Assembly (NCBI GenBank): GCA_030432595.1
Contig: JAUIGU010000001.1
Span: forward strand, 124,001 to 188,000
From: Phycisphaerae bacterium
GTDB taxonomy: Bacteria; Planctomycetota; Phycisphaerae; Phycisphaerales; Phycisphaeraceae
Direction of reading: 5' to 3'
Length of the DNA: 64,000 nt
Shown: one piece after another, positions 3 to 62,690 of the stretch
How the letters are laid out: every line of letters starts with the position of its first letter
Numbering within the stretch: position 1 is the first letter of the stretch
Position numbers and translations under genes: made by a program
Notes under the pieces: model-generated
What the model was told of the DNA's origin: nothing
Databases searched by the model: none
What the model saw: the letters and a program-made list of their open reading frames with translations, nothing else

Positions 3-2860
<2,858 letters not shown>

Positions 2861-2864
<4 letters not shown>

Positions 2865-2936
2865 TCAGCAGTCAGGAGCCAGTAGTCAGTTGAAATCAAC
2901 CTTTTTCTGGACTACTGACTACTGACTCCTGACTAC
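2861..2936. repeat. Inverted repeat of AGTCAGT-type words after sucA
   Basis: The left arm (2861-2890) is built from words such as GTAGTCAG and AGTAGTCAGT. The right arm (2911-2936) carries the complement (ACTACTGACT, then CTGACTAC). The arms can form a long imperfect hairpin with about 20 bases in the loop. It overlaps the sucA stop codon and lies in the sucA-sucB gap. There is no T-run after it, so it is not a typical terminator. It could protect the sucA mRNA end or be a dispersed element. Confidence 0.7.
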
Positions 2937-3004
2937 TTCCCAACTTCACCAAGCCCCGCATTCTCCTGAACCAACTTCCCGTTCCTCAAACCCCCACGCC
3001 CCTC

Positions 3005-11237: not shown

Positions 11238-12389
11238 ATGCCCGCCCCGCGCGTCCTCGTCATCCTCGGGCCCACCGCCGGCGGCAAGTCCGCGCTGGCA
11301 GTGTCGCTGTGCGAACGCCTGCCCGCGGTCACCGGCCACGCCGGCGAAGTCGTCGGCGCCGACTCCATGCAGGTCTACCGCCACCTCGACGCCGGCACCG
11401 CCAAACCCACACCCGACGAACGCCGACGCGTCCCGCACCACCTCATCGACCTCGTCGAACCCACCGAGCGCTTCACCGTCCGCGACTGGCTCGACCACGC
11501 CGACGCCGCCATCGCCGACATCCAGCGGCGCGGGAAACACCCCGTCGTCGTGGGCGGCACCAATCTCTACCTCAAGGCCCTACTCGAAGGCCTGATGGAA
11601 GGCCCCGACCATGACGCCGACTTCCGTGCGACCCTCGCCGATTTCACGCCCCCGCAACTGCACGAAAAACTCAAAGCCGTCGACCCCACCGGTGCCGAGC
11701 GCATCCAACCCAACGACCGGCAACGGCTGACCCGCGCCTTGGAAGTGTTCCACCTCACGGGCCGGCCGATCTCGGAACTGCAAACGCAGTGGACCGATGG
11801 CGGATGGCGGATGGCGGATGGCGGATGGGCGGAACGCAACGCAGGCATAAAAGAAACGTCCGACACGCCGGAAGACGCATCAACGCCTTCACGCTCTAAA
11901 CCCCCTTTCCTACATCCGCCATCCGCCATCCACCATCCGCCATCGCCCGGCTACCGCCACGACCCCGTCCTCATCGGCCTGCGCTGGCCCGTCGAAGCCA
12001 TCAACCCGCGCATCAACCTCCGCGTCAAGGCGATGTTCACCCCCGGAAGCGTCGAGCCCGAACTCGCGGAGGCGGTGTGCATCGGCGGCGAGTCACTGCC
12101 CGACGAAGTATGCCGCCTCGACGACGCCGGCTTGCTCGGCCCCCAGGCACGCGAAGCGCTCGGCTACAAACAAACGCTCGCCGCCCTCCGCCCCGAGAAA
12201 CACCCCGACCTCGCCGACGCCCGGATCCGAAGCCTCGACGACGCGATGGAGCGCACCAAGGTCCTCACCCGCCGCTTCGCCAAGCAGCAACGCACCTGGC
12301 TGAAGCGCTTCCGCGGCGTGCACTGGATCGACATGCCCTGCGACGACCCGGCCGCGCAGGCGTTGACGCTCGCCGCTTCGACACCGTGA
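11238..12389 (+). CDS. miaA: tRNA dimethylallyltransferase with in-frame palindromic insertion
   Basis: Transfers a dimethylallyl group to the N6 of A37 in tRNAs that read UNN codons. Family motifs are present: P-loop LGPTAGGKSALA near the N-terminus, GADSMQVYRHLDAGTAKP, HHLIDL, VVVGGTNLYLKALLEG, RALEVFHLTGRPISEL and, near the end, REALGYKQ and RRFAKQQRTWLKRF. The product is 383 aa, whereas typical bacterial MiaA is about 300-320. The excess is mostly residues 187-236, encoded by an inverted repeat of GGATGGC words (11796-11945, 150 bases, in frame) between ISELQTQW and YRHDPVLIGL. ATG at 11238 places the P-loop correctly and has TACACT 6 bases upstream. Confidence 0.93.
   Translation: MPAPRVLVILGPTAGGKSALAVSLCERLPAVTGHAGEVVGADSMQVYRHLDAGTAKPTPDERRRVPHHLIDLVEPTERFTVRDWLDHADAAIADIQRRGKHPVVVGGTNLYLKALLEGLMEGPDHDADFRATLADFTPPQLHEKLKAVDPTGAERIQPNDRQRLTRALEVFHLTGRPISELQTQWTDGGWRMADGGWAERNAGIKETSDTPEDASTPSRSKPPFLHPPSAIHHPPSPGYRHDPVLIGLRWPVEAINPRINLRVKAMFTPGSVEPELAEAVCIGGESLPDEVCRLDDAGLLGPQAREALGYKQTLAALRPEKHPDLADARIRSLDDAMERTKVLTRRFAKQQRTWLKRFRGVHWIDMPCDDPAAQALTLAASTP
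11796..11945. repeat. In-frame inverted repeat of GGATGGC words inside miaA
   Basis: The left arm 11796-11832 repeats GATGGCG and the right arm 11914-11945 repeats CATCCGC, enclosing an 81-base unique loop. The total of 150 bases keeps the reading frame and adds about 50 residues. The same arms occur at 40240-40388 and a single arm at 62654-62690. Confidence 0.85.
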
Positions 12390-24929: not shown

Positions 24930-26708
24930 ATGCGGATCACGCTCGCACAGATTAACCCAACGGTCGGCGACATCGCCGGCAACACCCGAATCATCGCGCA
25001 GCAACTCGACGCGGCCGATAAAAACGGCTCCGACCTGATCGTCTTCCCCGAGATGTCCCTGCTGGGCTACCCGCCCAAGGACCTCCTGCTCAAACCAGAC
25101 GTCATCGACCGCTGCCGCGCCGCCGTCGAGACGCTCGCCCAGCGCTGCACCCGGACCGCCGCCATTATCGGGCTGCCCGTCTGGTCCGACCACGCCCGGG
25201 GACGCACCCTCCACAACTCCGTCGCCGTCTGCCACGCCGGCCGCGTCCACGCCTGGCACCACAAGGCCCTGCTGCCCACCTACGACGTCTTCGACGAACT
25301 CCGCTACTTCGAGCCCGGCCCCCGCGTGGATGTCACCAACCTGCCCCTCAAGCCGGACCCTGAGCGAAGCAAAGGTCCGGGTCATCTGCGCCTCGGCATC
25401 TCCATCTGCGAAGACCTCTGGGGCGCCGCCGAGCACACGCAGCGCCGCATCTACCACGACAACCCCATCGACGAACTCGCCGCCGCCGGGGCCGAACTGT
25501 TTATCAACGTCTCCGCCTCGCCCTTCGTCGCCGGCAAACACCCCAAACGCCTCGCGATCATGGCCGACCTCGCGCGTCGCCACCGCATGCCGATCTTCTT
25601 CTGCAACCAGGTCGGCGGCAACGACGAGCTCGTCTTCGACGGCCGCTCCTGCGTCTTCGACGCCGAGGGGAACCTCGTCGCCCAGGCGGCGGGGTTCGAG
25701 GAAGACGCGCTCGTGATCGAAACGCCCGAACGGGGGTCTGGGGTCTGGGGCTTGGCCGGTCAAACCCGAAGCTCGATCTCCAACCCCCAAGCCCCAGACC
25801 CCGGCCCTGAAGCCGAGGTGCACAGCGCCCTCGTGCTCGGCCTCCGTGACTACGCCCGCAAGTGCGGCTTCAAGTCCGTCGTCATCGGGCTCTCCGGCGG
25901 AATCGACTCGGCCGTGACCGCCGCCGTCGCCGTCGCCGCGCTCGGACCCGAAAACGTGCGCGGCGTCACGATGCCGTCACGCTACAGCTCGCAAGGCTCG
26001 GTCTCCGACGCACAAAAGCTCGCCGAGGCGTTGGGCATTGCGTTTCACACCGTTCCGATCGAAGACGCTCACCGCGCCATGGAGTCCACCGTCCAACCCG
26101 TCTTCAACGACGTGCTCGGCGACCAAAACCAACCCGGCGTCACCGAGGAAAACATCCAGGCCCGCCTCCGCGGCGTCATCCTCATGGCGATGTCCAACAA
26201 GTTCGGCTCCCTGCTGGTCACCACCGGCAACAAGTCCGAGCTCGCCGTCGGCTACTGCACGCTCTACGGCGACATGGCCGGCGGGTTTTCCGTCCTCGCC
26301 GACGTGCCCAAGATGCTCGTCTACCAACTCGCCCGCTGGATCAACGACAGCAACGACTCGCCCCTGCGTCAACAGTTCGGCCGCGCGACGATCCCCGAAG
26401 ACACCATCACCAAACCGCCCTCCGCCGAGCTGCGCCCCGACCAGACCGACCAGGACTCGCTGCCGCCCTACGAACAACTCGACGAGATCATCGAGCGCTA
26501 CGTCGAGGACGAAGAGTCCGCCCGCACCATCATCGATCAAACCGGCTACGACGCCGAGACCGTGCTCCGCATCGTGCGCCTCATCGACCTCAACGAATAC
26601 AAACGCAAACAGGCCGCACCCGGTCTGAAGATCACCGGCCGCGCGTTCGGGTTCGGCCGACGCATGCCCATGGCCCAGCGCTACGACCCCCGGCACGGCG
26701 TCGAATAA
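24930..26708 (+). CDS. nadE: Glutamine-dependent NAD+ synthetase with two in-frame insertions
   Basis: Final step of NAD biosynthesis: amidates nicotinate adenine dinucleotide using ammonia channelled from glutamine. The product is 592 aa. An N-terminal nitrilase-type glutaminase domain carries the E-K-C triad (FPEMSLLGYPP E41, HHKALLP K112, SICEDLW C160). The C-terminal synthetase domain (about 300-592) has the ATP loop GLSGGIDSA (322-327), TTGNKSELAVGYCTLYGDMAGG and TKPPSAELRPDQTDQDSLPPY. Two segments look like repeat-derived insertions. One is PDPERSKGPG (142-151, encoded by 25353-25384). The other is the G-rich/C-rich inverted repeat of residues 268-291 at the domain junction (25732-25803). 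Both keep frame. Confidence 0.96.
   Translation: MRITLAQINPTVGDIAGNTRIIAQQLDAADKNGSDLIVFPEMSLLGYPPKDLLLKPDVIDRCRAAVETLAQRCTRTAAIIGLPVWSDHARGRTLHNSVAVCHAGRVHAWHHKALLPTYDVFDELRYFEPGPRVDVTNLPLKPDPERSKGPGHLRLGISICEDLWGAAEHTQRRIYHDNPIDELAAAGAELFINVSASPFVAGKHPKRLAIMADLARRHRMPIFFCNQVGGNDELVFDGRSCVFDAEGNLVAQAAGFEEDALVIETPERGSGVWGLAGQTRSSISNPQAPDPGPEAEVHSALVLGLRDYARKCGFKSVVIGLSGGIDSAVTAAVAVAALGPENVRGVTMPSRYSSQGSVSDAQKLAEALGIAFHTVPIEDAHRAMESTVQPVFNDVLGDQNQPGVTEENIQARLRGVILMAMSNKFGSLLVTTGNKSELAVGYCTLYGDMAGGFSVLADVPKMLVYQLARWINDSNDSPLRQQFGRATIPEDTITKPPSAELRPDQTDQDSLPPYEQLDEIIERYVEDEESARTIIDQTGYDAETVLRIVRLIDLNEYKRKQAAPGLKITGRAFGFGRRMPMAQRYDPRHGVE
25353..25384. repeat. In-frame palindromic element in the nadE glutaminase domain
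   Basis: Arms CCGGACC (25353-25359) and GGTCCGG (25374-25380) enclose CTGAGCGAAGCAAA. It encodes PDPERSKGPG just before the catalytic ICEDLW segment, in a loop that is normally about 12 residues shorter (from memory of the family). The CTGAGCGAAGC core is shared with common dispersed repeats of other bacteria. Confidence 0.6.
25732..25803. repeat. In-frame inverted repeat at the nadE domain junction
   Basis: Left arm 25732-25755 (GGGGGTCTGGGGTCTGGGG...) and right arm 25780-25803 (...AAGCCCCAGACCCCGG) with a 24-base loop. The 72 bases keep frame and encode residues 268-291 between the two enzyme domains. The same arm type occurs at 38050-38158 and 39253-39409. Confidence 0.8.
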
Positions 26709-39252: not shown

Positions 39253-39409
39253 CGCGGGTTCAGGGTATCGGGTTTGGGGCTTGGGTTCGGGGACGAACGG
39301 CGATCAATGGCGCAAGGCCGGTGTCATCGTTCTCGTTCGGTGTGGACCCCGCGAAATCAGCTTCCTCTGCATGATGATTTCCTTACCCCCGACCCCAAGC
39401 CCCAGACCC
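39253..39409. repeat. Inverted repeat of GGGTTTGGGGCTTGGG words
   Basis: Left arm 39253-39292 and right arm 39385-39409 (CCCCGACCCCAAGCCCCAGA...), in the gap between the mlaF-like and mlaD-like genes. Together with 38050-38158 it brackets the mlaD-like gene. Confidence 0.65.
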
Positions 39410-39452
39410 GGCTCCGCGTCGCCCTGTACGTGGCAAGGCAACGCGGTAGGCC

Positions 39453-40280
39453 TCAGATCGGTTCACCCGATGGCGCCGCGGCGAAGCCTTCGCGGATCGC
39501 GGCGAGGTCTTCGGCGTCGGCCTGGCCTTGGATGAAGCGCTGGACGCGGGGGTTGGCGGACTCGTGAAACGCCTCGGGGTCGGCGTCGCAGAGGACCTTG
39601 CCGCTGTGGAGCAGGACCATGCGGTCGCCGACCTTGTTGGCGCTCTGCATGTCGTGGGTGACGACGATGCCGGTCACGCCGGTGTGGTCACGCAGCGCCA
39701 CGATCAGTTCGTTGATCACGTCGGCGCGGATGGGGTCCAGGCCGGTGGTCGGCTCGTCGTAGAGCACCAGGTCGGGCTCGAGGGCGACGGCGCGGGCGAG
39801 GGCGACGCGTTTGCGCTGGCCGCCGGAGAGTTCGGCGGGCATCTTGTGCTGGATGTCGGGCAGGCCGACCTGTTTGAGCAGGACCTCGGCCTTGTCGCGC
39901 TGCTGGTCGAGGGTCAGGTCACCGAGTTCGGCCAGGGGGAACGCGACGTTCTCGCCGACGGTCATCGAGTCGAACAGCGCGCCCATCTGGAAAAGGAACC
40001 CGATGCGCCGGCGGACGGGGACCAGGTCGTGCTCGTCCTCGTTATCAACGCGTTGGCCGTCGAACCAGACCTCGCCCGCGTCGGGGCGCAACAGGCCGAC
40101 GATGTGCTTGAGCAGGACGCTCTTGCCCGTGCCGGAGGGCCCGAGGACGACGGTGGTCTTGCCGCGCTCGAAGTCGAGGCTGATGCCGTCGAGGACCACG
40201 AGCGAGCCGAACGCCTTACGGACGTTGCGGACGCAGACAATGGCGGATGGCGGATGGCGGATGGCGGATGGTTCGGGCAT
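39453..40280 (-). CDS. MlaF-like ABC transporter ATP-binding protein
   Basis: A 275-aa ATPase. Walker A is GPSGTGKS (47-54), signature LSGGQRKRVALARA, Walker B DLVLYDEPTTGLDP, and H-loop VTHDMQSA. The FLFQMGALFDSMTV block is characteristic of MlaF/Ttg2A. It powers lipid transport with an MlaE permease and the MCE protein encoded downstream. ATG 40280 is in the loop of an inverted repeat, and the first 14 residues (MPEPSAIRHPPSAI) are encoded by the GGATGGC-type arm, so the N-terminus is repeat-derived. The alternative is a start further in, but no ATG or GTG closer to the ABC domain has a ribosome site. Confidence 0.9.
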   Translation of the reverse strand: MPEPSAIRHPPSAIVCVRNVRKAFGSLVVLDGISLDFERGKTTVVLGPSGTGKSVLLKHIVGLLRPDAGEVWFDGQRVDNEDEHDLVPVRRRIGFLFQMGALFDSMTVGENVAFPLAELGDLTLDQQRDKAEVLLKQVGLPDIQHKMPAELSGGQRKRVALARAVALEPDLVLYDEPTTGLDPIRADVINELIVALRDHTGVTGIVVTHDMQSANKVGDRMVLLHSGKVLCDADPEAFHESANPRVQRFIQGQADAEDLAAIREGFAAAPSGEPI

Positions 40281-40388
40281 CGGCTCGATTCGCTTTCCCG
40301 CGCGGCGGTGTCTGCTGCGGTTCCTTCCTTCGGACTCAAGGCGGACGGCAGGTTTCCATCCGAAATCCGCCATCCGCCATCGCCCATC
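40240..40388. repeat. Inverted repeat of GGATGGC words spanning the mlaF start
   Basis: Left arm 40240-40271 (four GGATGGC units) and right arm 40357-40388 (...AATCCGCCATCCGCCATCG), with an 85-base loop containing the mlaF-like start codon. The arms match those inside miaA, whereas the loop sequences are unrelated. Confidence 0.8.
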
Positions 40389-55229: not shown

Positions 55230-55823
55230 TCACCCTGCCCACGGCTCAACCCACGACCAGCGCTGACGCGGCAGCCCCGCCTTGACCGGGTTGTTCTCCA
55301 CGTAACGTATGACTCGTCGGAGGTGGTCGGGCTCACGGACAAACGGGCACCAGTACTTCCGCGCCCACGGCGACGGCACACGCCCGCTCTCCGACGCATA
55401 CGCGGCCAAGGGGTGAAGTCCGGCACGGTTCAACGCTGCGGTCGCCTTGGCTTTCAAGTGTGACGCGATCTCGTCGATGTGCCGGGCGTTCCAGGCGAGT
55501 ACCAGGTGGACGTGGTCAGGCAGCGTCGCCAACGCGTGAGCTTTGTAGCCGCCTTCGTCACAGGCTTGGTGAAAACCTTGGGGAATCAATTGCGCCTGCT
55601 TTCCGTTAAACCGCACCGGCGGGTACTTCAGCGCGGCCTTGGCCGCTTTGCGGAGCGCCATATCGTGCGGGTCGGCCGCGAGCGAACGGGTGGTCTCGAC
55701 CTTCGTCGCTGGGCCAAACGCGAGCAGTTCGTAGCGGCGGATGGCGTCGGACCACGAACCGCGCGGGTCATTGGGGAGCCAGTAACCGTACGCGCTGAAG
55801 ATGAAGTGGAACGCGATGACCAC
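55230..55823 (-). CDS. REP-associated tyrosine transposase (RAYT, IS200/Y1 family)
   Basis: A 197-aa single-domain HUH-type nuclease. The start FHFIFSAYGYWLPNDPRGSW is typical of the RAYT branch of IS200/IS605 TnpA proteins. The HUH metal motif is LPDHVHLVL (H104, H106), and the catalytic tyrosine is probably Y174 in VIRYVENNPVKAGL. RAYTs cut and join single-stranded REP DNA and are thought to spread REP/REPIN elements. It appears intact, starts with GTG at 55823 (no clear ribosome site) and is flanked on both sides by REP pairs of one family. There is no second IS gene such as tnpB. Confidence 0.93.
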   Translation of the reverse strand: MVIAFHFIFSAYGYWLPNDPRGSWSDAIRRYELLAFGPATKVETTRSLAADPHDMALRKAAKAALKYPPVRFNGKQAQLIPQGFHQACDEGGYKAHALATLPDHVHLVLAWNARHIDEIASHLKAKATAALNRAGLHPLAAYASESGRVPSPWARKYWCPFVREPDHLRRVIRYVENNPVKAGLPRQRWSWVEPWAG

Positions 55824-62653: not shown

Positions 62654-62690
62654 CCATCCGCCATCCGCAATCCGCCATCCGCCATCCGGA
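62654..62690. repeat. Single arm of CCATCCG words before leuA
   Basis: Five CATCCGC-type units, the same words as the arms in miaA and at the mlaF start, without an opposite arm nearby. It lies between the attenuator terminator and the leuA ribosome site (AAAGG at about 62696). Confidence 0.7.

Follow-up and report, generated by a model that had tools for sequence, protein, structure and literature searches.

An in-frame palindromic element in miaA of a Phycisphaerae bacterium and its probable kinship with elements that carry intervening sequence protein genes

The closest described counterparts of the element reported here, a 151 bp palindrome lying in frame within the tRNA-modification gene miaA of a Phycisphaerae bacterium (family Phycisphaeraceae), are (i) intervening sequences (IVSs) of 23S rRNA, (ii) Rickettsia palindromic elements (RPEs), and (iii) inverted heptamer pairs of Xanthomonas. 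The element lies in a 64,000-nucleotide stretch that was analysed as a whole (the window; GenBank assembly GCA_030432595.1, contig JAUIGU010000001.1, positions 124,001 to 188,000 of the forward strand). Its host genome is labelled G000; the relatives named most often are a congener (G001) and two genomes of the same family that are not congeneric with it (G007 and G026). In the Coxiella 23S IVS, tandem GACAGAT heptamers precede an S23p open reading frame (ORF); its terminal stem measures 28 bp, and RNase III processes it (PMC4990558). RPEs are described as palindromes of about 150 bp that form in-frame insertions in numerous metabolic genes unrelated to one another (PMC10969869). In Xanthomonas, tandem GGGAATC heptamers form closely spaced inverted pairs, 70 and 75 of them in two genomes; they were studied as G-quadruplex repeats between ORFs and are under-represented in coding sequence, and the accessible text draws no link to an intervening sequence protein (PMC4692102).

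Heptamer repeats are not confined to these systems. The trnL intron of cyanobacteria is a group I intron. Its P6b stem contains degenerate heptanucleotide repeats, variable in number, whose pairing forms a hairpin (PMC3488679); unlike the miaA repeats, they reside within an intron, and no intervening sequence protein is mentioned in the part of that source at hand. Direct TAACTGA heptamers are reported from Beggiatoaceae (PMC4679880). The protein in question, the four-helix-bundle “23S rRNA intervening sequence protein” (IVP; PF05635/TIGR02436), resembles Avd of diversity-generating retroelements, and alignment of sequence and structure is reported to suggest homology (PMC10053308).

The miaA element shares features with several of these systems. 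As in the IVSs, in which an S23p/IVP-type protein lies between inverted terminal repeats, its repeats are stem-forming; unlike them, the elements described here occur in protein genes and between genes, the miaA copy is not in 23S rRNA, and its 85-nt interior is too short for an IVP, whereas a copy with the same word on contig C70 has one. Its size, palindromic form and in-frame position in unrelated genes (miaA, smc, bioA, and mfd, as well as HSP70 and hisF in G007) recall RPEs, from which it differs in its tandem-heptamer arms with genome-specific words, in its fuller IVP-bearing form, and in a host that belongs to the Phycisphaeraceae and not the Rickettsiales. Terminal inverted repeats without a transposase gene are a likeness to miniature inverted-repeat transposable elements.

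With a probability of about 0.68, the miaA segment is an IVP-less member of a dispersed palindromic family with inverted tandem-heptamer arms, whose fuller form is arm, IVP gene, inverted arm. Parts of this picture are already known, namely the heptamers of the Coxiella IVS and the inverted heptamer pairs of Xanthomonas, while their connection appears to be new within the literature searched: no work joining IVP genes to inverted heptamer arms outside rRNA was recognised in a search that left most subscription papers and bioRxiv outside its range.

A palindromic element inserted in frame in miaA

The element consists of two arms of 33 nt each that are 97% complementary and stand 85 nt apart, the whole spanning 11795-11945 (Table 1). 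Positions 11796-11945 make up exactly 50 codons, MiaA residues 187-236, and the miaA frame is open throughout. The identity of the gene is secure, with PF01715 (E 4.8e-66) and TIGR00174 (E 8.3e-64) each matching as two stretches, and PDB alignments for the N-terminal half stop at about residue 183, directly before the insert. The 13-mer GGATGGCGGATGG is matched 21 times in the window with up to two mismatches, compared with a mean of 2.96 (sd 1.74) in 100 shuffles. The folding energy of 11780-11960 is -91 kcal/mol vs -57.3 (sd 4.4) for shuffled sequence (z -7.7). An alignment-free structure model of MiaA had too low a pLDDT (36.7) to be of use. Assignment of the element to an Rfam family was rejected; only matches below the gathering threshold were obtained, mostly to microRNA-type hairpins, a generic stem-loop effect. 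The AACGCAACGCAGG-like words of the interior resemble, by eye, another repeat word in the same genome.

Comparison with relatives establishes the insertion. In the congener, only seven residues (DDTPPDT) separate the flanking W and Y, and the MiaA loci of relatives generally have a short loop from “ISELQ..W” to “YRHDP”. The initial annotation, made from the window alone, had described an in-frame palindrome of GGATGGC words adding about 50 residues to a product some 60 residues longer than typical MiaA, and had proposed alignment with the MiaA of relatives as a check. That description is borne out by the arms, the open frame, and the alignment, in which the congener lacks the insert; the length estimate was fair, the protein having 381 residues counted from the common start vs 331 in G001 and mostly 304-350 elsewhere, apart from two aligned loci with long loops of other sequence (G033, 375; G019, 366).

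Table 1. Positions of the miaA element and of related features in the window
Feature	Position	Strand	Remarks
miaA coding sequence, 383 aa	11238..12389	+	carries the palindromic element; ATG 11238, stop ends 12389
Left arm of miaA element	11795..11827		tandem GGATGGC heptamers, translated DGGWRMADGGW; inverted-repeat search
Interior of miaA element	11828..11912		85 nt, ~28 residues in frame; holds AACGCAACGCAGG-like words
Right arm of miaA element	11913..11945		inverted heptamers, translated HPPSAIHHPPS; inverted-repeat search
Second GGATGGC element	40240..40387		arms 40240-40271 and 40356-40387, 84 nt between arms; reaches N-terminus of mlaF-like ABC ATPase, gene on - strand
Single heptamer array, inverted orientation	62654..62687		upstream of 2-isopropylmalate synthase gene (name by eye)
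Palindrome, words AGTAGTC/AGCAGTC	2853..2944		arms 2853-2887 and 2910-2944; words match G000 IVP element on contig C35
Palindrome, word GGGGTCT	25735..25807		arms 25735-25755 and 25787-25807; in frame inside NAD+ synthase; second in-frame coding palindrome noted in window
Palindrome, G-rich heptamers	39269..39410		arms 39269-39292 and 39387-39410; palindrome survey

The miaA segment is one of a dispersed family that has entered other protein genes. The exact 13-mer occurs 44 times at 13 loci of the host genome, the reversed control pattern not at all, and a 20-mer was found in three of 61 genomes: G000, G007 (many copies), and G026 (one copy). It is absent from G001, which has no GGATGGC-type insert at miaA, at mfd, or at the starts of ispF and mlaF. 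In-frame cases were ascertained by seeking long ORFs that span arrays, with no systematic search for host genes broken by them; in G000 such arrays lie within smc, bioA, and mfd, at the N-termini of ispF and mlaF, and in one further ORF without a profile match; arrays also occur at or near the starts of other genes. G007 has in-frame arrays in MiaA, Mfd, HSP70, HisF, and a KDO transferase (a short array), and another in front of the stretch of an isomerase that best matches FKBP. Five further G007 loci (L361, L363, L366, L370, and L372) encode pseudopilin-like proteins with heptamer elements in the leader just before a GFTLIE-like prepilin motif, so prepilin peptidase would cut off the inserted peptide. 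N_methyl matches were found in four of six candidate G007 pilin ORFs scanned; L366, scanned separately, gave none.

Inverted arms around IVP genes

The GGATGGC copy on contig C70, which sits at the start of ispF, encloses an IVP gene (PF05635, E 4.6e-17; also TIGR02436) whose ORF runs on in frame into ispF, and the flanks of IVP genes were therefore examined generally. Two sets were used: 65 distinct loci out of 115 PF05635 matches in relatives, and 80 loci kept from named genomes, among at least 584 confirmed, with at least three (L261, L263, and L266) common to both. With an inverted flank score of 16 or more as the threshold, arms bracket 53 of the 65 loci (9/10 in G000) and 68 of the 80, the latter set spanning Planctomycetota, Bacteroidetes, Chloroflexi, Acidobacteria, Clostridia, Omnitrophota, Kiritimatiellae, candidate phyla, Proteobacteria, and others. 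Mismatched flank pairs served as controls; the 99th percentile of 150 such pairs was 16.5 and the largest score 19 for the first set, while 4.5% of 400 pairs reached 16 for the second, the largest being 29. Random 330-nt intervals of G000 reached 16 in 38 of 1500 cases (2.5%), and none reached 20.

Among the 68 armed loci, the best arm period is 7 in 39 and 8 in 16, and in the other 13 no period stands out. On average the period-7 word reads GG[GC]NNT[AC], and most loci have a word of their own. No rRNA match was obtained for any of the 80 named loci when as much as 1.5 kb of each flank was included, so the rRNA IVSs look like the exception rather than the rule.

The association extends to palindromes without an IVP gene. 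A survey of 464 kb of G000 for periods 7 to 10 found an inverted partner within 700 nt for 14 of 38 period-7 arrays (two rows being one element), 5/15 at period 8, 4/79 at period 9, and 2/18 at period 10, with zero in the control each time; period-6 arrays gave 1/90 and a control of 1. By coordinates, no IVP gene lies inside any of the 21 palindromes of periods 7-9, and one of these adjoins an armless IVP gene. When they were compared with those IVP arms that score 19 or more (47 of the 53), 13 of the 21 had their best match among the arms of their own genome and not among the 38 taken from other genomes; for three of the 13 the margin was one only. The miaA interior (11828-11912) and locus L029 on contig C11 both hold AACGCAGG-like words that resemble the arms of an IVP locus at C32, which suggests composite elements.

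The same sites also recur with different words. Among 30 MiaA loops, taken from 60 genomes with a MiaA match, eight contain a period-7 run, one of them weak (G022), whereas codon-shuffled sequences gave a mean of 0.10 and at most 2; runs of periods 5, 6, 8, 9, and 10 were found in none of the 30. In other genera this loop holds heptamer arrays of other words; the clear ones outside G000 are CCATCCG, AAATCCG, GGAATCC, ACCCGGA, and AAACTCG. At mfd, the loop of G001 is short, that of G007 contains the GGATGGC word, and that of G010 (L236) contains a different in-frame palindrome of the TTAGCCCC...GGGGCTAA type (stem score 24, shuffles up to 11). At the bioA site of the G000 element, G026 (L249) has in-frame inverted arrays of the sister word GGCAGAT, and in G001 GATGATA-type words make up a palindrome upstream of leuD (stem score 18, shuffles up to 11). 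The smc loop of G001 was dropped as another palindrome, its 9-nt stem scoring 9 where shuffles scored up to 13.

Weighing the readings

Several observations weigh against the preferred reading. Twelve of the 65 and 12 of the 80 IVP loci fall below the arm threshold. Although GGATGGC abounds in G007, none of the six IVP loci there has GGATGGC arms. The congener has a heptamer palindrome at leuD, and its sole IVP match is below the family cut-off and armless. Eight of the 21 palindromes are not better matched to the IVP arms of their own genome. Visual inspection, which was no systematic test, showed no target-site duplication in the flanks that could be set against those of G001, and instead of a clean empty site G001 has 22 residues of unrelated sequence in its bioA loop. 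Single arrays occur at mfd, at a hisB-like start (named by eye), and at 62654, which has no inverted partner within 700 nt downstream. Finally, different words at the same sites (miaA, bioA, and leuD, with another palindrome at mfd) are as compatible with hot spots, or with words that change in concert, as they are with fresh insertion. The G007 and G001 patterns speak against simple mobilisation in trans; an IVP of the same word is therefore not needed at present, and “relative of IVP elements” is the best wording for the miaA copy. Two side observations concern individual loci: six IVP genes that lack arms (L215, L144, L146, L188, L196, and L212), some of which resemble one another, may have become fixed in their hosts and not be elements, and two GGATGGC units lie immediately beyond the left arm of one IVP locus of G007 (C68:37912).

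An origin in place, without mobility, would have a heptamer array grow by slippage and template switching across the foldback copy it to the opposite strand, IVP genes merely sitting there or arising together with the array. Tandem growth at period 7 or 8, the many different words, the word variants common to both arms of one element, the single-arm loci, and the different words at the same sites in relatives all suit this explanation; it is nonetheless unlikely, since one word at 13 loci of G000 and in another genus needs copying between loci, and IVP genes are bracketed at 53/65 and 68/80 loci against 2.5% of random intervals. Removal at the RNA level, as in 23S rRNA IVSs, would mean that RNase III cuts the hairpin from the miaA transcript or that it is spliced. 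The near-perfect 33-nt stem at -91 kcal/mol, together with the 28-bp stem and the RNase III processing of the Coxiella IVS (PMC4990558), is in its favour. We consider it improbable, because cutting without ligation would break the miaA mRNA, because the recognised domain-interior hosts of the ascertained set keep frame and a multiple-of-three length that ligated removal would not need, and because IVP loci in the named set are free of rRNA matches.

Three further explanations have small chances. Movement by a Y1 transposase, as in repetitive extragenic palindromic (REP) elements and their REP-associated tyrosine transposases (RAYTs), would account for palindromes that are dispersed and often near gene ends, and Y1_Tnp matches do exist (three in G000, four in G007, and one in G001). 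To our knowledge, however, tandem heptamers and entry into genes are atypical of REP anatomy, and by coordinates no Y1 match of G000 lies between or beside GGATGGC arrays, the nearest being about 3.5 and 7 kb off, which makes this origin very improbable. A weak Y1 transposase match (PF01797) at 55290-55613 of the window does not adjoin heptamer arrays. Ordinary loop variation by low-complexity or tandem-repeat expansion, with nothing mobile, could be seen in a MiaA loop that varies among relatives and is long, with other sequence, in G033 and G022; yet expansion would not create an inverted counterpart at a distance of 85 nt or place one word at 12 further loci, and this account is hardly tenable. 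The initial annotation had drawn a parallel with Rickettsia. The parallel stands for behaviour but not for membership: the size, palindromic form, and in-frame insertion in metabolic genes fit the description of RPEs (PMC10969869), but the chance of true homology is minimal, given that the peptide here follows the heptamer word and that words differ between genomes, a judgement for which RPEs were compared by description only.

Proposed mechanism and significance

Under the preferred reading, in which the miaA segment is a relative of IVP elements, copies would move or be duplicated by a process that uses the arm hairpin, as DNA or as RNA, and IVP or host enzymes may help by recognising the shape of the arms rather than their word. 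Insertion, dispersal, preservation of the frame, and the association of IVP genes with arms are demonstrated; hairpin-dependent copying, mobilisation by IVP, and translation into a surface loop are what we infer. Copies within genes would persist only when they have a length that is a multiple of three, a stop-free word, and a permissive loop or leader as their site. That miaA tolerates the insert is probably due to a length divisible by three and to a word, GGATGGC, that has no stop in any frame. Freedom from stops in all six frames is not special to this word; half of all heptamers have it, and it applies to only 14 of the 39 period-7 IVP arm words. Ribosomes would read through the hairpin, and MiaA would thereby gain a surface loop of about 50 residues. 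A reverse transcriptase adjacent to an IVP gene found no support in the host genome, a difference from the diversity-generating retroelements to which Avd belongs: the sole reverse-transcriptase match is more than 30 kb away from the closest IVP locus of the same contig.

More tentatively, and at somewhat less than even odds, IVP genes across bacteria could form the core of small mobile elements that all belong to a single, very widespread class and whose arms are recognised by shape, each element keeping its own word homogeneous in both arms, while IVP-less copies spread the word and repeatedly enter the same permissive loops and leaders of essential proteins. Given the relation of PF05635 to Avd, the arms could conceivably be built by reverse transcription or by foldback synthesis. 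If true, a single anatomy would be shared by rRNA IVSs, inverted heptamer repeats so far without explanation, and palindromes inserted into proteins, and the common “four helix bundle protein” family, to which no function is assigned, would acquire a testable genetic context. In-frame palindromic insertion would then be no peculiarity of the Rickettsiales, and core enzymes would have been remodelled in this way in another phylum too.
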